Source: Desulfatitalea sp. BRH_c12
Lineage (GTDB): Bacteria; Desulfobacterota; Desulfobacteria; Desulfobacterales; Desulfosarcinaceae
Direction: 5' to 3'
Assembly: GCA_000961655.1 (NCBI GenBank)
Contig: LADR01000047.1
Location: 62,001-126,000 of the forward strand
Length of the DNA stretch: 64,000 nucleotides
Part shown: positions 54,319 to 64,000 of the stretch, one piece after another
Numbering within the stretch: the first letter of the stretch is position 1
Layout of the letters: each line of letters opens with the position of its first letter
Program-made: the position numbers and the translations under genes
The notes under the pieces: generated by a model
Database searches by the model: none
What the model saw: the letters and a program-made list of their open reading frames with translations, nothing else
What the model was told of the DNA's origin: nothing

Positions 54319-55785
54319 TTAAAAGAACTTGTCCTGAATCCCCATGGGATCTTTGAATTCCAGGTTCGGATCGAAGCGCAGTTTTTTCTCTCCGCGTTCA
54401 TCCACATATTTCATGATTTCCAGATCCACTTTGAGCGGCACCTCGACCCCGGCCTGGGCCAGTGCTTGGCGCAGATAAGCTTCGGCGCGTGTGCCAAAGG
54501 CCAGGGAATCGCCAAGAATCCGTAGCCCTTCGGTGGGGTTGTGAAACCCGATCGAGTTTTCCGCACCCATGAACAGAGAGCGATAGAAGGCCTCTTCATA
54601 AAACTCTTTGGCCTTGTCGTACAGCGCTGTGTCGATCGTTTTACCTTCGGCCTGGGCATTGTGGGTCAATTCGAACAGTTTGGCCACAGTGGCCGTCTGA
54701 TAACCGGCCCGAATCATGATTGAAATCGTCTGGTCCTGCATGGTGAAAACACGGTCCCTGAGCCACTCGGCATTCTCGGCGTGACACTGCCGGCAAGCTT
54801 TCATATCCGCCTGCACCGGGCTCATGACGCGGTGGTCGGAGATCTTGTGAACCCCGGCCACGGTGTAAGGCATGTGGCAATCCGCACAAGACGCACCAGC
54901 TTTGAAATGGGTGCTGCCGTTGGTCCAGAATTCATATTCAGGATGACGGATGAAGGCCATTTTGAAACCGGTTACACCTTGTTTCCATTCCAGCACGCTA
55001 TCGTCATCGCGGATCTGCTGGATAATATCTTCGATGGTGATTTTACCGGATTTGCTGTTCTGCCATGGGAAGTACAGACCGACCGATTTGCCCTCCGCGT
55101 CTTTTGGGATATTATACGTGACATGGCATTGCGCGCATACCATCGAGCGCATTTCCTGGCGGGTCAGTTGCGTGGGGTCCTTGTCGATATGCTTCATCGC
55201 TTCGACGAGCGTGAATCCACGGGAAATCTTCAAGCTCATATCTTTGTTGTCATGGCAGTCGATGCAAGCGACCCCAAGTTCCCTGAACTCTTCGGGGATT
55301 TGTTCGAGGACCTCTTTGAAAGGCCGCTTATAATAATCCGTCCCCATGTCCTTTTGAAGTATCGGCGCATAGGGCGTCTTGCAGCTCAGACAGACCCCTC
55401 CGGACTTGAGGCGCGAGGAGTCGATCTCCAGTTGATCGCGGATCATGTACGCATGTCCGCGCGGCTCGTTGTACTCCACTCCAAACCCCCAACCATTGAA
55501 AAGGAGCGCCATGTAGGGAAATTGCGACAGTTTATCCACGCCAATGGCCCCGCTGTCCATGCCGGTTTTGTACTTGCTGCGGCGCGTGCCCACGGGTTCG
55601 GCAGTCTTCTTCCACAATTCATATTCCTCGGGATAGGCTCTGCCCCAGACCGCCGGATCGACTGTACCGTCGGGAATCTCGACGACCTGCCGGGGCTTGG
55701 GCTCGGGTGGACTGCATCCGACGAGAACGACCAGCAGGCCGAACAGTACGCATGCTGTCAGTTTTTTTCTTGAGCTGAAACCCAT
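54319..55785 (-). CDS. nrfA: Cytochrome c nitrite reductase, catalytic subunit (lipoprotein)
   Basis: A 488-residue pentaheme enzyme that reduces nitrite to ammonia with six electrons. The catalytic heme motif CLSCK (C132-C135-K136, Lys ligand) identifies NrfA. Four CxxCH motifs follow: CIDCH, CAQCH, CADCH and CRQCH. The signal ends in VVLVGC (C24), a lipobox, so the protein is likely lipid-anchored in the periplasm rather than freely soluble. GGAGGAG precedes ATG 55785. nrfH lies just upstream (132-bp gap) in the same operon. Confidence 0.96.
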   Translation of the reverse strand: MGFSSRKKLTACVLFGLLVVLVGCSPPEPKPRQVVEIPDGTVDPAVWGRAYPEEYELWKKTAEPVGTRRSKYKTGMDSGAIGVDKLSQFPYMALLFNGWGFGVEYNEPRGHAYMIRDQLEIDSSRLKSGGVCLSCKTPYAPILQKDMGTDYYKRPFKEVLEQIPEEFRELGVACIDCHDNKDMSLKISRGFTLVEAMKHIDKDPTQLTRQEMRSMVCAQCHVTYNIPKDAEGKSVGLYFPWQNSKSGKITIEDIIQQIRDDDSVLEWKQGVTGFKMAFIRHPEYEFWTNGSTHFKAGASCADCHMPYTVAGVHKISDHRVMSPVQADMKACRQCHAENAEWLRDRVFTMQDQTISIMIRAGYQTATVAKLFELTHNAQAEGKTIDTALYDKAKEFYEEAFYRSLFMGAENSIGFHNPTEGLRILGDSLAFGTRAEAYLRQALAQAGVEVPLKVDLEIMKYVDERGEKKLRFDPNLEFKDPMGIQDKFF

Positions 55786-55917
55786 TTCTCCTCCTCTGAG
55801 CTAAACCGGCTGCGCCGGAGTGAAAAGTAGAAAGTACTCGCGGAGCATATATTCAGGGCTACGCGAGTGATTCTGTTGCTTGCTTGTGTGCTCGCACTAT
55901 CATGGCGTATCCACGCA

Positions 55918-56379
55918 TTAATTGACCATTCGTACACCGGCCAGTTGATGCTGTAAAAAACGATGGCAGTCCCAGCAGTTGCGTTCCTGGTCGATCATTT
56001 GGACACGTTCGGAATGACAACGGACACAGTTGTCGCGCACGAACCGCTGCCCGCGTTCCGACACCTGAATGTATTCCGGTGTATGACCCGAGTGGAATAC
56101 AACAACATCTTTCATGCCATCGATTGATTTCCAGAGATAGTAGAGGGCCAGATTGTCGTGGGGTAAATGGCAGTCCACGCAACGGATACTGCGGTGTGCG
56201 CCAACATTGAACCAGGCCTCAAATTGCCCCTGCATGACATGGCACGAGGAACAAAAGAGCGGCGATTCCGTGCGCGCCATGAGTTTGGGTGGACCAAACG
56301 CCAGAAAGATGCTGATGATGGCCGCGACAATCACAATGCCTATCAAGAATTTCCATCTGTGTTTTTTAATGACACGCAT
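55918..56379 (-). CDS. nrfH: Cytochrome c nitrite reductase, quinol-oxidizing subunit
   Basis: A 153-residue NapC/NirT-family tetraheme protein that oxidizes menaquinol and passes electrons to NrfA. A single N-terminal span (FLIGIVIVAAIISIFLAFG, about 11-29) is followed by four CxxCH motifs: CSSCHVMQGQFEAW, CVDCHLPHDN, CVRCHSE and CWDCHRF. The Met after the first heme is the usual axial ligand region. GAGAGGT precedes ATG 56379. It is divergent from the PocR-Hdr operon across 285 bp. Confidence 0.95.
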   Translation of the reverse strand: MRVIKKHRWKFLIGIVIVAAIISIFLAFGPPKLMARTESPLFCSSCHVMQGQFEAWFNVGAHRSIRCVDCHLPHDNLALYYLWKSIDGMKDVVVFHSGHTPEYIQVSERGQRFVRDNCVRCHSERVQMIDQERNCWDCHRFLQHQLAGVRMVN

Positions 56380-56605: not shown

Positions 56606-56664
56606 TGTTTTTAATGTTCATTAGCGTGCATGGGCGGATAGCGTCCGCATAAAAGGAGACCTTG

Positions 56665-57177
56665 ATGGAACTGGTAGATTTGTGTTCACTCGAGACCTGG
56701 GCAGCGCTCGAGAAAGATATTCACGATCGTTCCGGACTGAACCCGGCGGTTTTCAATGTCGATGGCATTCGGGTCAATCCGAACCCGCTTTGGCCCAACC
56801 GGTTGTGTCCCGAAATCAAAGCCAATCCCAAAGGGCAGGCCTTTATCTGCGCCACAGCGCACATGAATCTCGCCAATACGGCCCGCCAACAGCGCCAGGC
56901 GGTGATCGAAGAGTGTGATGCGGGTATGGTCAAATTGGTGGTGCCTATCTTTTTTGAAGGCACTTTTCTCGGAGCTGCCGGCGGCTGCGGTCTGCTTCTT
57001 GGCGACGGCGAAGTGGAAACCTTTCTGGTAGCCAAGATCACGGAAATGCCAGAGGAAAAAATCGAACGACTGTCTGAGGCAATCCCATCGATCAGCGAGC
57101 AGAAAGCGCAGGCGCTGGCGGACTTCATTCAGGAACGGATCGAGGGCATTGTCGCCAACTACAAAGCGCGGCATTAG
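56665..57177 (+). CDS. PocR-type sensory domain protein
   Basis: A 170-residue stand-alone PocR domain. The opening LCSLETWAALEKDIHDRSGL, NRLCPEIKANPKGQAFICAT and VKLVVPIFFEGTFLGAAGGC follow the pattern of this PAS-related ligand-binding domain. PocR was first known in propanediol regulation and often occurs in sensors of hydrocarbon-related compounds. Here there is no output domain, so it could sense a ligand or redox state through its Cys (two in the PocR motif, others at ECDAG and GGCG). AAAAGGAG precedes ATG 56665. The HdrA-like gene starts 2 bp after its stop, so they are tightly coupled. Confidence 0.8.
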   Translation: MELVDLCSLETWAALEKDIHDRSGLNPAVFNVDGIRVNPNPLWPNRLCPEIKANPKGQAFICATAHMNLANTARQQRQAVIEECDAGMVKLVVPIFFEGTFLGAAGGCGLLLGDGEVETFLVAKITEMPEEKIERLSEAIPSISEQKAQALADFIQERIEGIVANYKARH

Positions 57178-57179
57178 AC

Positions 57180-58280
57180 ATGATGAGCTCGGATCGGGCG
57201 TTTAAGGAGCTGTTCGTGAACCTGAAGGGCAAACAAGGGGTTGTCATCGGTGCAGGCGTCGCTGGATTAACAGCCGCCGCCGCTTTGAGCCGTTGGGGCG
57301 TCCAGGTGTGGTTAATCGATAAAGCGCCCGTGATTGGCGGGCACGCCATCCAGTTCAGCTGCAAGGCAATCGAGGGATGTGTGCAGTGCGGTGCCTGTCA
57401 GGTCCACGAACGCGCACAACAGGTCTCGCGGCAAAAGAATATCACGTTTGTGCCGGGGGCACGGATAGTGCGCAGTCGCGGAAATGGCCGCCTTGAGTTG
57501 ACGCTTGCCGCCAGCGGACAGGGCGCGGGCCAAAGCGCAGGTCGTTTCCCGGACACCTTGAATGCCGATGCTCTGCTCGTCACGACCGGTTTTACCGTTT
57601 ACGATCCTTCCCACAAACCGTATGGCTACGGCCAGTTCGCCAATGTACTGACCAACCTGGATGCCGAACGGATATTGCATGCCACAGGCGCTTTGGCGCG
57701 TCCGTCCGACGGCCGTTTGCCCCGGCGCATGGCGTTTATCCAATGTGTCGGCAGCCGTGATCATCGGATCGGGCATGACTGGTGCAGCAAGATATGTTGC
57801 GGTTCGGCGCTGCGCATGGCGCGCCTGGTCCAGAGCCGCCAGCCTGGAACAGCGGTGACTTTTTTCTACATCGATGTACAGAGTTTCGGTCGCCAATTCC
57901 AGGCGATCTACGACGGCTGCCGAGAACGGATTCGAACGGTACGCGCCATACCGGCCGATATCCGCAAAACAGCCGACGATGATATGCAGGTTACCTATTT
58001 CGATCCCCAGGACCGCAACGCGACAGATGCTGTTTTTGATTTGGTCGTGCTGTCTGCTGGGCTGACGCCCACTGCTGACAATGCCGTTCTGGCTTCCGTG
58101 CTTGGAATGCGCCTGCTGGAAAATGGTTTCTTTTGTCCTCACGACAATGACACGCAACCGCCGGGCATGTTTGCGGCCGGCGCCGCCCTGGGACCGATGA
58201 GTATTGCCGAAAGCATCGATAGTGCTGGCAAGGCAGCCTTTGACATGGTCCGTTATCTGGATGGCGGGCGGCTTCGATAA
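57180..58280 (+). CDS. HdrA/QmoA-like FAD subunit
   Basis: A 366-residue flavoprotein. GVVIGAGVAGLTAAAALSRW is the FAD motif. IQFSCKAIEGCVQCGACQVH holds a Cys cluster, and the HdrA-specific AFIQCVGSRD and WCSKICCGSALRMA blocks are present. MFAAGAALGPMSIAESIDSA is the typical C-terminal flavin contact. It is shorter than full HdrA and lacks its C-terminal ferredoxin domains, which matches QmoA. QmoA-type subunits confurcate or relay electrons between quinone and soluble carriers. It is the second gene of the operon; no apr genes are near, so it is a paralogue rather than the sulfate-reduction QmoA. Confidence 0.85.
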   Translation: MMSSDRAFKELFVNLKGKQGVVIGAGVAGLTAAAALSRWGVQVWLIDKAPVIGGHAIQFSCKAIEGCVQCGACQVHERAQQVSRQKNITFVPGARIVRSRGNGRLELTLAASGQGAGQSAGRFPDTLNADALLVTTGFTVYDPSHKPYGYGQFANVLTNLDAERILHATGALARPSDGRLPRRMAFIQCVGSRDHRIGHDWCSKICCGSALRMARLVQSRQPGTAVTFFYIDVQSFGRQFQAIYDGCRERIRTVRAIPADIRKTADDDMQVTYFDPQDRNATDAVFDLVVLSAGLTPTADNAVLASVLGMRLLENGFFCPHDNDTQPPGMFAAGAALGPMSIAESIDSAGKAAFDMVRYLDGGRLR

Positions 58281-58333
58281 GAATGCTTTTTCACGAGAGC
58301 ATCACAACTGATGAACAAGGATTGCGATCCACA

Positions 58334-59923
58334 ATGACGATTTATTCCGAAACGCTCGTCATCGGCAGCGGCCCCTGCGCCAGCCATGTGGCCGATAACC
58401 TGGCTGAACAGGGCATCGGCGTGACATGGGTGACCGGCAATGTTACTGACGCGGTGAACACGATCGCACTTCAGCCCCCTGCCAGAGTCAACCGTGTGCA
58501 GGGCAGTGCGCTGGTGGGCTGTCAGGGACAGGCCGGCTCGTTCCGGATCATTCTCGACCAGGGTGGCGTTCGCACGGCACACGGGGTGGCAAGTATTATT
58601 GTGGCCGAAGAAGCGTTGTACCTGCCCAATTTCTCCGAATATGGGCTTCAGGCGTCCAGACGAGTTGTCACGCTATCGGCGATCGAAGCCAAAGCGCGCG
58701 ACGTTGCGTTGGAAAGCCTCATCCCACCGGAGGCGCGCGTGGTGTTTTTAAATGGCTGGCGACGCGACAGCCATCCGGCGATCGCTGCGCGCATGTTGGC
58801 GTTTTGCCTGCGCTTGCAGAAAATCAGCACCGCACGAACTGTGTTCATGACCGGCAACTTGAAAGTGTCGATGGATCACATGGAAGCCTGCTGCCAGGCG
58901 GCGAAAGCCGCCGGCGCCATTTTTGTCAAGTTTGGCGATCGCGTGCCGCGCATGGCGATGCTGGACGACACCCGCGTTCAGATCGATTACCACGACGAGA
59001 CCAGTGGAATGGATTTTCGCGTCTCCGCGGACCTGGTCATTGTCGACGAAACAGTTCACGCCCACCCGTCATTGGCCGGTATAGCCGAGATCCTGCGGCT
59101 CGAACGGGATGCGACCGGCTTTTTGCAGGCGGACAACGTTCACCGCCTCAGCAACAGCACCAACCGGCGTGGCGTATTCGTGGCGGGCGGATCACGCGCG
59201 GTGGCCGGCGCCGAACAGCAGAAGGCCGATGCTGGGCAAGTCGCCTTGCAGGTGGTTGAATTTCTCGCGGGGCGTGACCGCGAGTCGCTGCGCACGGTCG
59301 ATATCGACCAGGGCCGCTGCGCACGTTGCCTGACCTGTTACCGGTTGTGCCCCTATATGGCCATCGACATCAGCCCGCGCATGACGGTCGTTGCCCAGGC
59401 GTGTCAAAGTTGCGGCCTGTGTGCGGCCGGATGTCCGAACCAGGCCATCCGCATGAGTGATGCCGGTGTGCCCGAGGCGATCGAAGCCCTTTCCCGAATC
59501 GAAGGCAATCCCGCACGATCAGTGCCATTTACCCCCAGGCTGGCGATTTTCGGCTGCAACAGATCAGCGGCCCTGGCTCGCGAAGCGGCCTTCGCCCTGG
59601 GCCATAAGCTGTCCGCCGGGGTAACATTCGTCGAAGGGCTGTGTGGCGGCTCTTTCTCAGTGAACCATCTTCTGAAGGCTTTCGAGGCTGACGCGGATGG
59701 CGTTTTGCTGTTGAGCTGCCACGAAGGCAACTGCCATTCAGGCACCGGCACCTCTCACGCACGCAAAAGGTGTGCTGAAGCGGCCAAGGCACTTTCCTGG
59801 GCCGGTGTGGAACCTCAACGTATCCATTACGGCACGCTGTCCGCCTCTATGGGATGTGAATTCGTGCAAGTGGTCGATGACTTTGTCACTCGCATTGCGG
59901 CTCTGGGGCCGTTGACACGCTGA
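58334..59923 (+). CDS. HdrA-MvhD/QmoB-like Fe-S flavoprotein
   Basis: A 529-residue fusion. An HdrA-type FAD domain is first (SETLVIGSGPCASHVADNLA). Two 4Fe-4S motifs lie at about 330-375 (CARCLTCYRLCPYMAI, CQSCGLCAAGCPNQAI). An MvhD/FrhD-like domain follows (AIFGCNRSA, GLCGGSFSVNHLLKAF, LLLSCHEGNCHSGTG), normally a 2Fe-2S carrier that feeds Hdr. The same order is found in QmoB. ATG 58334 has AAGGA upstream at 11 nt; ATG 58283 is an alternative that adds 17 residues. With the previous and next genes it forms an Hdr-like electron-transfer set. Confidence 0.85.
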   Translation: MTIYSETLVIGSGPCASHVADNLAEQGIGVTWVTGNVTDAVNTIALQPPARVNRVQGSALVGCQGQAGSFRIILDQGGVRTAHGVASIIVAEEALYLPNFSEYGLQASRRVVTLSAIEAKARDVALESLIPPEARVVFLNGWRRDSHPAIAARMLAFCLRLQKISTARTVFMTGNLKVSMDHMEACCQAAKAAGAIFVKFGDRVPRMAMLDDTRVQIDYHDETSGMDFRVSADLVIVDETVHAHPSLAGIAEILRLERDATGFLQADNVHRLSNSTNRRGVFVAGGSRAVAGAEQQKADAGQVALQVVEFLAGRDRESLRTVDIDQGRCARCLTCYRLCPYMAIDISPRMTVVAQACQSCGLCAAGCPNQAIRMSDAGVPEAIEALSRIEGNPARSVPFTPRLAIFGCNRSAALAREAAFALGHKLSAGVTFVEGLCGGSFSVNHLLKAFEADADGVLLLSCHEGNCHSGTGTSHARKRCAEAAKALSWAGVEPQRIHYGTLSASMGCEFVQVVDDFVTRIAALGPLTR

Positions 59924-59945: not shown

Positions 59946-61178
59946 ATGACCAATCCCACCCCCTCTTTTGTTCGTTTGGAGGATTTGGATGCCGGGCTTT
60001 GCAAGCATTGGCCGTACGCCCAGGACGTCTGTCTGACGTGCGGCATGTGTTCAGGGGCGTGTCCCGTGGCCGGAATGAATGATTTCGATCCGCGCAAAGT
60101 CGTCCGATTGGTCTCTATGGGCATGCTCAATTGGATCGTCGGCGAACGCTGGCCATGGATATGCACCATGTGCGGCAAGTGCGAGCAGGTGTGCCCCATG
60201 GGCATCGACATCGCGGATATGATGCGCGCCATCCGGGCGCTGCGCGATCGTGTAAAGATTCCCGGCATTTTGCAGGACGGCCTGGCAAACGCTTTGCGCA
60301 CCGGCAACAACCTGGCTTTGCCCAAAGAGGATTTTGTCTTCATTCTCGAGGATGTGGCCGAGGAGATGACCGAAGAACCCGGTTTAAAGGATTTCAGCAT
60401 TGCGATCGACAAACCGGGCGCCAATATCCTGACCACCATCCACAACAAGCTGGTCAACACCCATACCGAGGACCTGAAACACTGGTGGAAAATTTTCCAC
60501 GCAGCCGGCGAAGACTGGACCATCGCTTCCGATAATTGGGAAGGCACAAGCTGGGGGTATTTTACCGGAGACGACGAGGCCATGAAAATCATGGCGGGCC
60601 GTATTGTGGACAACATGCGGCGACTGAAGGCCAAAACGCTCTTGTGGCCCGAATGAGGGCACGCGTATCTGGCGACCCGGTCGGGTCTGCAAAAATGGTA
60701 CCCGGAAGCACTCGCGGAATTCGAAACCGTAACGGTATTTGATCTGCTGATCCGCTACATCCAGGAAGGCCGCATTACTCTGGATCGTAGCCGATTTACC
60801 GATCTGGTCACTTATCACGACCCATGCAATTACGGCCGACGTGCGCAAAAAAAATTCGGCCATGGGTATTTCGCGGAACCGCGCTGGATTCTCGACCAGT
60901 GCACCACCCAATGGGTGGATCTGCACCCCAACGGTCTCTATCAAACCTGCTGCGGTGGCGGCGGCGGCGCGCTGACCACTGGTTATAACGAGGAACGCAC
61001 CTATTATGGCCGCCGCAAGATGGAACAGATCCGGGCCACCGGTGCCGGCACACTGGTGGTGCCCTGCCACAGCTGTCACGGTCAACTCAACAACATCAAA
61101 ACCCATTACGCCATGCCCGACCTTAAGATCAAATATCTCTGGGAACTGGTGGCCGACTGTCTGGTTCTGCCGGAATAG
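59946..61178 (+). CDS. HdrD/DsrK-like CCG-domain oxidoreductase, probable selenoprotein (UGA = Sec)
   Basis: I read one 410-residue protein with an in-frame UGA at 60654-60656 translated as selenocysteine 237. Two 4Fe-4S motifs are at the front (C29-C32-C35-C39 in CLTCGMCSGACP; C73-C76-C79-C83 in CTMCGKCEQVCP). The UGA falls in LLWPE-U-GHAYLATR, where HdrD/DsrK relatives are expected to carry Cys (ECGHA). The same frame runs on for 173 codons without another stop and supplies the full CCG signature: C294 (YHDPCN), C335-C336 (TCCGGGGG), C374 and C377 (PCHSC). A hairpin with a GGUC loop begins 15 nt after the UGA. AGGAG precedes ATG 59946. The subunit would reduce a disulfide or relay electrons as part of the Hdr-like complex. 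Confidence 0.85.
60672..60690 (+). promoter_or_regulatory. Candidate bacterial SECIS hairpin
   Basis: GACCC (60674-60678) pairs with GGGTC (60683-60687) around the loop GGTC (60679-60682). Two further pairs extend the stem with one bulged T at 60688. The loop begins 22 nt after the UGA. E. coli fdhF has a closely similar AGGUCU apical loop, and known bacterial elements place the loop about 16-37 nt downstream with a G among the first loop bases. Fit to SelB is inferred, not shown. Confidence 0.6.
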
Positions 61179-61268
61179 ACAACGGCCTGCCTTGACCCGA
61201 CCCCTGCTTTGGGATAAGTGATTGCACCTCGCAGTACCGAGGGGACATCATTACTTATTGCCAGGTTC

Positions 61269-62765
61269 ATGGATATCCAACAACTATTCTTTAAGGACAG
61301 GACTTTTCATTTTTTCGGCCCGCTTACCGGTCGTTACCGGGAAATGGCGGTGTCGTGTATCCGCAATCTTTATCTGCGTCTGAACGGACCAGAGGCGGAC
61401 TACAGCTACCATCTGACCCGCGGGGATGTGCTCGATATTTTTGGTGCCAGTATCCGTTCGGCGCCGGCGCTTGATGACGATGTGCCGGGTTCCGCGGCGG
61501 CTAAAATGTCGCTTCAGGACCGGACGGCGTGGATGCTTAAAAAACTGACCGATGCAGGTTGGATCGAAGCGTACATGGATTCGGGAACCATGCAGACGGC
61601 CTACCGTTTCACCCCCCAAGGCCGGCAATTCGCCGCGCCGTTTGCCCAACGGCATTCCGAGATTATTACCAACACGCAGCACACCCGCAGCACCCTTTCC
61701 CACCTCCAGAGCTTTGTAACCAAGATGCAGAGCGGTGTATTATCGGTCGGAGACTTGATGATCGCCGCCAAATTGTCCGGGGAGATTATCAGCGATTTCA
61801 ACGAAATCATCGAGGAGATCGTGGAACAACGCCGGGCGCTGATCGCCTCGGTCAACCGGGAAATACTGGCGGCCAAGCAGGCCGGGGATAATTTTTTCGA
61901 ATTCATGGAAAAACGCTTTATTCCCGATATGTGCGTCCGGTTCAGCCGGGATTCGGTAGAGCGTTACCGCAATGAAATTCTGGACCTGCTGGATGCGATT
62001 CGGGGACAAACCGACGATACCAAGGCCGCCATAGAAAAGGAACTTCGCAATTTTTATCCGCACCTGTTAAGAGCCGGTCGGCCTTCGATCCTGATATGGG
62101 TTCTGGATTCGATCGAACAGCGCCTGACGGCCGCCTGTGATGTAAAGATACCCGAGCTGCGCGCCCAGACCGAAAATTTCATTCGGCGCGCCCAGGTTCT
62201 GATCAACCATCTGGCCAGCCTGGCCTTTGGCGAAATCGATACCGATTCAGTGTTCTCTTTGGTTAAACGGCTGTCCGGTTTAGACGAGGCGGATGTGCGG
62301 GCCATTCTCGAAGATGAACGCAGCCGTCCGGCACGCGTTGCCATCGGCTTGGTCAATCCCGCAAAAGTGAAACTGCCGGGGAAAAGAGCGATGCGGCACA
62401 TACACACTGCTTTGGAAAAGCAAGCCCAGGTCCGGCCTGAAGAGCAGCGCAAAGCCTATATCCGGCAGGAACTTGCCCTGGCGTTTCGTATCGATACCGC
62501 CAGCATCAAGGATTTTGTGATCCAGCAGTTGCTGGGGGGACATAAAATTCGGGCATCCGATTTTATTATTCACGATGCAGCATCCCTTTTGGGAGCCATC
62601 CATGCACCCATGATAGGCAGTGCCGGAAGGAGCGGGCAGCTGTTTCGCATCACGCCCATCGATGAGACGATTGAAAACGATTATTTCACCAGCAATGATT
62701 TTACCATTGAATACTTGGGCCCGATCGTCGGCGCCGAGAACAAGGACGGTAAGGATGTGGACTGA
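61269..62765 (+). CDS. jetA: Wadjet defence protein JetA
   Basis: A 498-residue protein matching JetA, the kleisin-like winged-helix subunit of Wadjet, an SMC-type complex that recognises and cuts closed circular plasmid DNA. MDIQQLFFKDRTFHFFGPLT starts the domain. Helical segments such as QHTRSTLSHLQSFVTKMQSG and EQRRALIASVNREILAAKQA follow, and winged-helix-like parts flank them. ATG 61269 is preferred over the upstream GTG. It overlaps jetB by 11 bp. It is 90 bp after the Hdr operon and may have its own promoter. Confidence 0.85.
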   Translation: MDIQQLFFKDRTFHFFGPLTGRYREMAVSCIRNLYLRLNGPEADYSYHLTRGDVLDIFGASIRSAPALDDDVPGSAAAKMSLQDRTAWMLKKLTDAGWIEAYMDSGTMQTAYRFTPQGRQFAAPFAQRHSEIITNTQHTRSTLSHLQSFVTKMQSGVLSVGDLMIAAKLSGEIISDFNEIIEEIVEQRRALIASVNREILAAKQAGDNFFEFMEKRFIPDMCVRFSRDSVERYRNEILDLLDAIRGQTDDTKAAIEKELRNFYPHLLRAGRPSILIWVLDSIEQRLTAACDVKIPELRAQTENFIRRAQVLINHLASLAFGEIDTDSVFSLVKRLSGLDEADVRAILEDERSRPARVAIGLVNPAKVKLPGKRAMRHIHTALEKQAQVRPEEQRKAYIRQELALAFRIDTASIKDFVIQQLLGGHKIRASDFIIHDAASLLGAIHAPMIGSAGRSGQLFRITPIDETIENDYFTSNDFTIEYLGPIVGAENKDGKDVD

Positions 62766-63450
62766 GCATCTCGCGCAGGAACTGAAGAACCGCAATCTGA
62801 GCATGGCTGAGTTTCGGGCGGTGTTGCTGCGTCTGCTGGACAAACAGGTCATCTACCGTCACGAAAGTCAGGTTGAAGCCGAATTGTACGATCTTTTCGT
62901 GCGCATGCAGGCGGTGGTGGAAACCTACTTGGATATCCTTGGCATCACGGTTTTTTATAATTCGCAGCTCAATTTTGTTATCGCTTATCCGCCGGGCAGT
63001 GATATTCCCGGGGTTGCGATCGGAGATGCCGGCCAGACCGCGCTGCAACGACGGATCCATGCCGATGAAGCTGGATTGATGATCACCTTGCGCTTGTTGT
63101 ACGAAGAAAAGATCCGCGAAGGTGACATCGATGAGCAAGGGTGTGTTTTTGTTCCGTTGGAGACCGTTTTTACGCGCTATCTGAGCATTACCAAAAAAGA
63201 GATGCCGGCCGCTGAAGCCGAGCGTCGTTCCCTTTTCAATGCCCTTAAACAACTTCGCATCGTGACCTATTCGGATCTGGCCGGCGCCGAGCAATGGATA
63301 GGCATCCGGGAGATCATCATGCATTTCACCTTGAACGGGATTGTTGAGGCCCTGTCGGACCGGGAAATTCGGCCCACAGGCGTGCAAGATGCCGAACCGA
63401 TCGAACCGGATCGGGCCGGAATACAAATACCGGATCAGGAGGATGCATGA
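62755..63450 (+). CDS. jetB: Wadjet defence protein JetB
   Basis: A 231-residue DUF4194-type protein, the KITE-like partner of JetA. MSMAEFRAVLLRLLDKQVIY-like sequence (SMAEFRAVLLRLLDKQVIYR), DILGITVFYNSQLNFVIAYP and ALKQLRIVTYSDLAGAEQWI show two winged-helix regions. The start ATG 62755 lies inside the end of jetA (11-bp overlap), and its stop overlaps the jetC start (ATGA), so all three are translationally coupled as in known Wadjet operons. Confidence 0.87.
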   Translation: MWTEHLAQELKNRNLSMAEFRAVLLRLLDKQVIYRHESQVEAELYDLFVRMQAVVETYLDILGITVFYNSQLNFVIAYPPGSDIPGVAIGDAGQTALQRRIHADEAGLMITLRLLYEEKIREGDIDEQGCVFVPLETVFTRYLSITKKEMPAAEAERRSLFNALKQLRIVTYSDLAGAEQWIGIREIIMHFTLNGIVEALSDREIRPTGVQDAEPIEPDRAGIQIPDQEDA

Positions 63451-64000
63451 AACTTAACTCAATGGGGTTGCTCAATTGGGCCAATCTGCCCAACCGCGAT
63501 TATGACTTCAGCCAGATCAACATGATCACCGGTGAATCCGGGGCCGGAAAGACCACTTTGCTGGATGCCCTTCAAACCATCCTCACCGGGACCACGGCCG
63601 GTCTTTTTCAGTACAATCCCGGTCAGGAGGAAGCCACTCAGCAAAGCCGTGTCAAAGAGGTGCGGACCCTGGCCTCCTATATTCTGGGCTGTGACGATGC
63701 CTCCTACGCGCGTCCACAGGGTGCCCATGGTTACCTTTTCGCCAACTGGGTCCCTGAAATGGGTGATAAATCCCAGCCGTTCACCGCCCTGATCGGAGCC
63801 AGCGCCTATCTGGACAGTGCCGGCAACAAACGCACGGCCAAGGAAGAGGATCTTGTCCTGGCGGTGGTACGATCCGCCACGTTGTGCGTGAAGGACCTGC
63901 TGCTATCCCCCGATCAGGGAGAAGAGCAGGCAGGGGAGCAGATTATCCCCGTGGCCATGCTGGCCAACCATTTAAAAACGAACCATCCCGGCATGCAGGT
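63447..64000 (+). CDS. jetC: Wadjet SMC-like ATPase JetC, 5' part
   Basis: The first 184 codons of the large SMC/MukB-like ATPase run off the window edge. The opening MKLNSMGLLNWANLPNRDYD and the Walker A loop ITGESGAGKTTLLDALQTIL (about 27-46) are typical of JetC. The product should be over 1000 residues with a coiled coil and hinge beyond the edge. AGGAGG precedes the ATG. JetD, the toprim-like nuclease, is expected next. Confidence 0.9.
   Translation, partial: MKLNSMGLLNWANLPNRDYDFSQINMITGESGAGKTTLLDALQTILTGTTAGLFQYNPGQEEATQQSRVKEVRTLASYILGCDDASYARPQGAHGYLFANWVPEMGDKSQPFTALIGASAYLDSAGNKRTAKEEDLVLAVVRSATLCVKDLLLSPDQGEEQAGEQIIPVAMLANHLKTNHPGMQ

Follow-up and report, generated by a model that had tools for sequence, protein, structure and literature searches.

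The frame at positions 59946-61178, to all appearances a broken gene, most likely makes an intact selenocysteine (Sec)-containing electron-transfer protein in a relative of sulfate reducers, and the UGA at 60654-60656 that interrupts it almost certainly stands for Sec. The DNA analysed (hereafter the window, to which all positions refer) comprises 64,000 nt of Desulfatitalea sp. BRH_c12, contig LADR01000047.1. The explanation that we favour as a whole, and to which we assign a probability of about 0.75, joins a Sec gene, a complex with HdrA-like/FlpD proteins, and Sec acting as a redox group beside a noncubane cluster. The recoding signal, the exchange of Sec and Cys, the domain composition and the arrangement of the genes are evident from the sequence itself. 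The features concerned are:

56662-57177, + strand: stand-alone PocR sensory domain protein, first of a co-directional run (Pfam PocR).
57180-58280, + strand: HdrA/QmoA-like flavoprotein (Pfam Pyr_redox_2; PDB matches to HdrA chains and to 6tjr_A, residues 21-355).
58283-59923, + strand: HdrA/QmoB-like protein with a C-terminal FlpD (MvhD-type) domain, directly upstream of the selenoprotein gene (Pfam FlpD; NCBIfam HdrA2, partial and below cut-off).
59946-61178, + strand: selenoprotein gene for a soluble HdrC-HdrB (HdrD-type) Fe-S protein of 410 aa with Sec237 (read-through translation, Pfam, AlphaFold2 model, fold matches).
60030-60194, + strand: two HdrC-like cubane [4Fe-4S] sites, C29 C32 C35 C39 and C73 C76 C79 C83 (Fer4_8; conserved cysteines).
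60654-60656, + strand: UGA codon read as Sec, residue 237 (site codons in 190 homologues; Sec machinery in the genome).
60674-60687, + strand: apical hairpin of the predicted SECIS, with 5' arm 60674-60678, loop GGTC 60679-60682 and 3' arm 60683-60687 (5/5 pairs).
60825-61076, + strand: complete second CCG motif (C294, C335-C336, C374, C377), a predicted noncubane [4Fe-4S] site (Pfam CCG; EtfD alignment).

A preliminary description of this DNA had proposed that a single TGA interrupts an otherwise open frame, that a complete set of CCG cysteines follows it, and that a gene caller would split the gene in two. Translation bore this out: the TGA is the only internal stop, corresponding to residue 237 in the context LLWPE-U-GHAY, and the frame closes at TAG 61176-61178 to give a read-through product of 410 residues. 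The cysteines C294, C335-C336, C374 and C377 lie where they had been placed and do not vary among the 28 rows of an alignment, and the mechanical list of open reading frames (ORFs) contains two separate entries, 59946-60656 (236 aa) and 60915-61178 (87 aa). The window was also screened for frames interrupted by a single TGA that have at least 60 codons on each side of it and overlap little with comparable ORFs. Five candidates emerged, 59946-61178 among them; of the other four, two were scanned with Pfam, and in both the domains were confined to one side of the TGA.

The codon at the site was compared in 190 aligned homologues: 150 have TGA, 34 have TGC and 6 have TGT, and these three are the only codons seen. 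Relatives with Cys at the UGA position, which the preliminary description had anticipated, are thus present. Homologues were gathered from 395 genomes of the phylum plus a named genome collection, and comprise 30 loci from the phylum search, 80 loci from the named collection and 80 regions hand-picked among the phylum matches listed (one locus, L167, is partial, and another, L056, has a second stop near the C-terminus, inside the matched stretch). All 80 loci from the named collection, the best 80 of 548 relatives, carry TGA at the site. One relative from this collection, Desulfosarcina alkanivorans PL12 (L066), has a homologue 73% identical to the window protein. Of the two patterns used to scan this collection, one was a Cys-coded motif and the other covers a different part of the protein, so that UGA was not favoured by the scan. 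In these best 80 of 548, residues 238-400 had a mean identity to the window protein of 0.681 and residues 101-236 one of 0.716 (n = 80). The TGA is therefore more than chance, as it is kept in relatives and is followed by sequence nearly as conserved as that preceding it. On a tree of 115 of the 190 rows (short search), the Sec and Cys labels require at least seven changes, and the window protein falls in an all-Sec clade of 16 rows. Two positions beyond the site, residue 239 is His in 161/190 homologues and Gly in 29/190; a Cys-only branch (L136-L147 and others) shows the motif PDCGGGSYG and near variants, with Gly in place of the conserved His. For annotation, a standard ORF caller breaks up such genes, and UGA is present in 150 of the 190 chosen homologues.

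Downstream of the UGA, a five-pair stem is found at positions 21-34 counted from the first base of the codon, in one of two registers and with a loop that mostly begins with GG. Some of the named loci and genomes appear to be duplicate records (e.g. L060 and G132:C3), and distinct stretches (142 UGA, 39 Cys) were therefore used for the hairpin. All five pairs form in one of the two registers in 118 of the 142 distinct UGA genes and four pairs in the remaining 24; five pairs plus a GG loop occur in 106/142. Because the registers were picked after the sequences had been inspected, and related sequences are not independent, the argument is carried by the shuffle and slide controls and not by the raw count. 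Synonymous shuffling, with both the encoded protein and the codon usage of each gene held constant, gave a complete stem in 2.3% (mean 3.3, maximum 8 of 142), and sliding the stem by 1-6 bases left 0-3 of 142 complete, versus 118 at shift 0. Among the Cys genes, 5/5 pairs were present in 6/39, none of these six having the GG loop. For the window sequence taken alone, 94 of 5000 synonymous shuffles reached five pairs.

Folding and model searches of the same region count against the hairpin. The stand-alone fold of 51 nt of the window has no unusual stability (z -0.89), and Rfam searches of 201 bases at E values up to 10 returned no SECIS match, only unrelated weak ones. A search with RF00031, which we take to be a model of the eukaryotic SECIS, found nothing in the Desulfatitalea genome; it also found nothing in 14 control genomes, and this null is therefore uninformative. 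RNAalifold gave almost no consensus energy (-0.27) when all 142 UGA genes were pooled, probably because the two registers were mixed; for 67 sequences close to the window it gave no more than -2.75, and three pairs of the stem formed. After sorting by register (74 and 44 sequences) the values were -7.07 and -8.03 and the hairpin was recovered, a result that is circular given the sorting. The SECIS hairpin that a bacterial selenoprotein should have just 3' of its UGA is nevertheless supported: the stem is conserved beyond the shuffle and slide controls, although there is no Rfam match and the single-sequence fold is not significant.

The genome encodes the machinery for Sec insertion. As the preliminary description had presumed, selA, selB, selC and selD are all present, each above its family cut-off; the tRNA-Sec, likewise above cut-off, has the anticodon TCA. 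The SelD gene (L216, C66:111700-112626) itself contains one internal TGA. Counting the window gene, a search of the genome with the window protein gave four members of the family, each interrupted by a single TGA, and the TGA was confirmed at the same site for the window gene and for the paralogue C30:224102-225232. The three further TGA members, on C30 and C66, are L175 (5103-6233, - strand), L246 and L247, and the L175 member adjoins an ORF of 1506 residues with HdrA matches. A relative without an internal TGA, possibly a selenium-free counterpart, lies in the same genome near an HdrA-like ORF of 1010 residues (L248, 5135-6562, - strand). Taken together, site codons, conserved hairpin and Sec machinery strongly support the view that the UGA encodes Sec at the Cys position of an Hdr-like protein.

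Pfam detected two domains above gathering scores, Fer4_8 at residues 27-87 and a single CCG domain at 288-381. The best PDB sequence matches of the Fer4 part were HdrC chains. An AlphaFold2 model with Cys replacing Sec (pLDDT 84.1, pTM 0.84) matched the fold of Mycobacterium smegmatis EtfD (9ojn) best along the chain, with Z 25.0 over residues 14-410, and further matched HdrB over about 158-409 (8rvu_B, Z 19.8; 5odc_B, Z 18.8) and HdrC over 22-214 (5odh_I, Z 9.6). The preliminary description had called the protein HdrD/DsrK-like. Its HdrC-HdrB (HdrD-type) domains and fold uphold the first half of this name, whereas its scores stayed below the curated NCBIfam cut-offs for DsrK (158 bits vs 400), HmcF (186 vs 750) and TmcB (184.5 vs 735), and these identities were rejected, as was QmoC (54.3 bits vs a curated cut-off of 300).

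The alignment with EtfD suggests where Sec237 lies relative to the metal sites. In a profile match of modest strength (31.8 bits, E 1.1e-6), the C-terminal part pairs E236 with T580, U237 with C581, G238 with P582, H239 with H583 and A240 with C584, and C294, C335, C336, C374 and C377 with Cys637, 672, 673, 709 and 712. Passages of the EtfD report (PMC13083937) give Cys503, 538, 581 and 584 as ligands of cluster D1, and Cys637, 672, 673, 709 and 712 together with His583 as ligands of the noncubane cluster D2. Residues 84 to 236 of the window protein include no Cys, and A240 stands in place of Cys584, so that of the four D1 ligand positions only Sec237 remains. An HdrB/HdrD protein with two noncubane clusters was ruled out on the same grounds, with one CCG match and no Cys in 84-236. 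Sec237 sits in a remnant of the first CCG domain and, by the alignment with EtfD, should be close to the noncubane cluster.

We next considered the neighbouring genes among relatives, using the best 80 of 548. In 56 of the 68 relatives with more than 1.8 kb of upstream sequence, a homologue of the HdrA/FlpD gene lies on the same strand no more than 500 nt upstream. Of the 60 for which upstream sequence exceeds 3.1 kb, 50 have an HdrA-type homologue of the first HdrA-like gene at a distance of 1.5-2.3 kb upstream. Since 12 of the 68 relatives are without the HdrA/FlpD neighbour, a complex containing it is not universal for the family. PocR homologues occur near the selenoprotein gene in 24 of these best 80 of 548 (18 upstream, 6 downstream), many of the stretches being short. 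When the ORFs of five regions of the Desulfatitalea genome were compared, the best match of the HdrA/FlpD protein was the QmoB-like ORF that precedes qmoC (88.6 bits). The first HdrA-like protein fitted a large HdrA-like ORF (124 bits) and the QmoA-like ORF (119 bits) about equally well; QmoA and QmoB were here named by their position before the QmoC match. QmoC itself is encoded separately in the genome and scored above cut-off.

The Pfam scan of the window neighbours found no Etf gene and no hydrogenase gene among them, the genes being HdrA-like, FlpD and PocR on one side and Wadjet on the other. The latter is a Wadjet-type defence system (JetA, JetB and the start of JetC, 61218-64000, + strand) that begins 39 bases past the selenoprotein gene; JetA had no match at E 1e-15 in the fetched stretches of the best 80 of 548 relatives. 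At 54319-56379 (- strand), genes of the cytochrome c552 family (NrfA-like) and of the NapC/NirT type (NrfH-like), assigned by Pfam, face away from the operon. Both the first HdrA-like protein and the selenoprotein give weak matches, far below cut-off, to the NCBIfam model NF045663, 'diclust_near_Sec', whose name suggests a related Sec-linked system.

On this evidence we hold it to be virtually certain that 59946-61178 is one intact selenoprotein gene whose UGA would be decoded as Sec by SelB/tRNA-Sec. The predicted SECIS hairpin, beginning 17 nt past the UGA, would direct SelB/tRNA-Sec to insert Sec. From the conserved gene order we infer that the soluble HdrD-type product probably works in a three-protein complex whose other members are the products of the two upstream HdrA-like genes, the second bearing an FlpD domain. 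In such a complex, flavin and Fe-S centres in the HdrA-like/FlpD subunits would feed electrons into the two cubane clusters and thence into the noncubane cluster held by the intact CCG domain. There, Sec237 would stand in for the missing second noncubane cluster, forming and breaking a bond to the substrate, which might be a disulfide, a persulfide or a thiol. The chances that Sec237 is such a bond-making group in place of the second cluster appear to us slightly short of even.

That the TGA is instead a true stop or a sequencing error, leaving a pseudogene or a truncated protein, is the reading that a standard gene caller would favour by yielding two ORFs. We regard it as exceedingly improbable. 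A base error is disfavoured because TGA stands in 150/190 homologues, and the other 40 carry a Cys codon; conservation falls off little beyond the TGA, and the hairpin is maintained. Pseudogene, base error and plain stop were accordingly rejected on codon conservation and downstream conservation. Decoding of the UGA as Trp or another residue is likewise unlikely because only TGC and TGT occur as alternatives.

What Sec does once inserted is less sharply constrained. Residue 237 might directly bind the noncubane cluster through its selenolate, or bind a remnant second cluster in this way, and so tune the cluster's potential without being a catalytic selenol; the pairing of U237 with the D1 ligand Cys581 and of H239, two residues on, with a D2 ligand fits such a role, but the other D1 ligands are missing and the window chain alone therefore cannot hold an EtfD-style D1 cluster. 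We consider this rather unlikely, and more unlikely still a relay of the EtfD/FadF kind, in which Sec would protect the site or adjust transfer with a flavin partner and no disulfide chemistry would take place. The relay draws on the fold comparison, in which EtfD ranks first along the chain (Z 25.0), and on FadF and DgcB reportedly also lacking the cluster D1 cysteines according to passages of PMC13083937; against it stand the lack of Etf genes among the scanned window neighbours and the occurrence of Sec or Cys in 190/190 homologues examined, for which a relay does not itself account. The same passages describe the His-capped noncubane cluster of EtfD as non-catalytic, and its counterpart here may therefore merely relay electrons.

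Returning to Sec237 as the bond-making group, a more far-reaching version, which we put forward as doubtful, is that in this subfamily Sec, at the one ligand position left of the lost second noncubane site, replaced a whole Fe-S cluster, that a neighbouring His caps the remaining noncubane cluster, that the pair of Sec and His-capped cluster cleaves a disulfide or persulfide, and that the HdrA - HdrA/FlpD - HdrD complex may bifurcate electrons. If true, disulfides or persulfides would be cleaved by Sec and a His-capped cluster instead of by two open clusters. Sulfate reducers commonly encode Hdr-like proteins, and the Sec/Cys site marks the probable place of the chemistry and makes it testable.

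Several known systems resemble this protein. The preliminary description had regarded a Sec site outside Sec-HdrA as new, which does not hold against published passages: a selenoprotein family 'Fe-S oxidoreductase (GlpC)' with 5 selenoproteins was listed in 2006 (PMC1794560), in 2026 a 'Fe-S oxidoreductase-like protein' with the motif UGH was listed (PMC13188914), and Desulfobacterium autotrophicum is reported to have an HdrD4 that contains Sec (PMC2702500). By the description of the GlpC UGH family in such passages (listed example WP_174406253.1), it has the same UGH UGA in an Fe-S/CCG protein of Deltaproteobacteria, with Cys homologues; the window protein shows PE-U-GHAY, Cys codons in 40/190 homologues, and Fer4_8 plus CCG. 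That Fer4 plus CCG defines the family is our reading of its COG0247 label. A Sec homologue from Desulfogranum marinum (L124), 52% identical, is followed by HdrA-like, Oxidored_q6 and NiFeSe-hydrogenase-family proteins, an order that, the position of frhD aside, fits the glpC-hdrA-frhD-frhG-frhA operon as given in published passages. The window setting differs in consisting of HdrA-like, HdrA-like/FlpD and Sec genes, without a hydrogenase among the scanned neighbours. HdrD4, compared by its description in passages of PMC2702500, is likewise a soluble HdrC+HdrB fusion with Sec.

HmcF, TmcB and DsrK are the best NCBIfam matches of the window protein, yet their curated cut-offs are far from reached. 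EtfD of M. smegmatis shares the noncubane ligand cysteines and His583 in alignment, but it is membrane-bound and has the cysteines for a linear [3Fe-4S] D1 cluster, of which the window protein keeps the Sec position only. Compared with methanogen HdrBC (5odc, 8rvu), the window protein has the HdrC and HdrB folds in one chain, and only one complete CCG motif where methanogen HdrB has two noncubane clusters. QmoABC and QmoAB-HdrD have the same order of an HdrA-like protein, an HdrA-like protein with FlpD and then an Fe-S subunit. In passages of PMC10504309, QmoAB-HdrD and QmoAB-HdrBC are named as alternative complexes of sulfate reducers, among them some Deltaproteobacteria, and these passages mention no Sec subunit; the window genome has its separate QmoC. 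At the level of abstracts and passages, the literature searched yielded no description of an HdrA - HdrA/FlpD - Sec-HdrD operon. Set against these known systems, as far as such abstracts and passages describe them, the placing of Sec on the EtfD structure and the conserved HdrA - HdrA/FlpD - Sec-HdrD gene order may be new.
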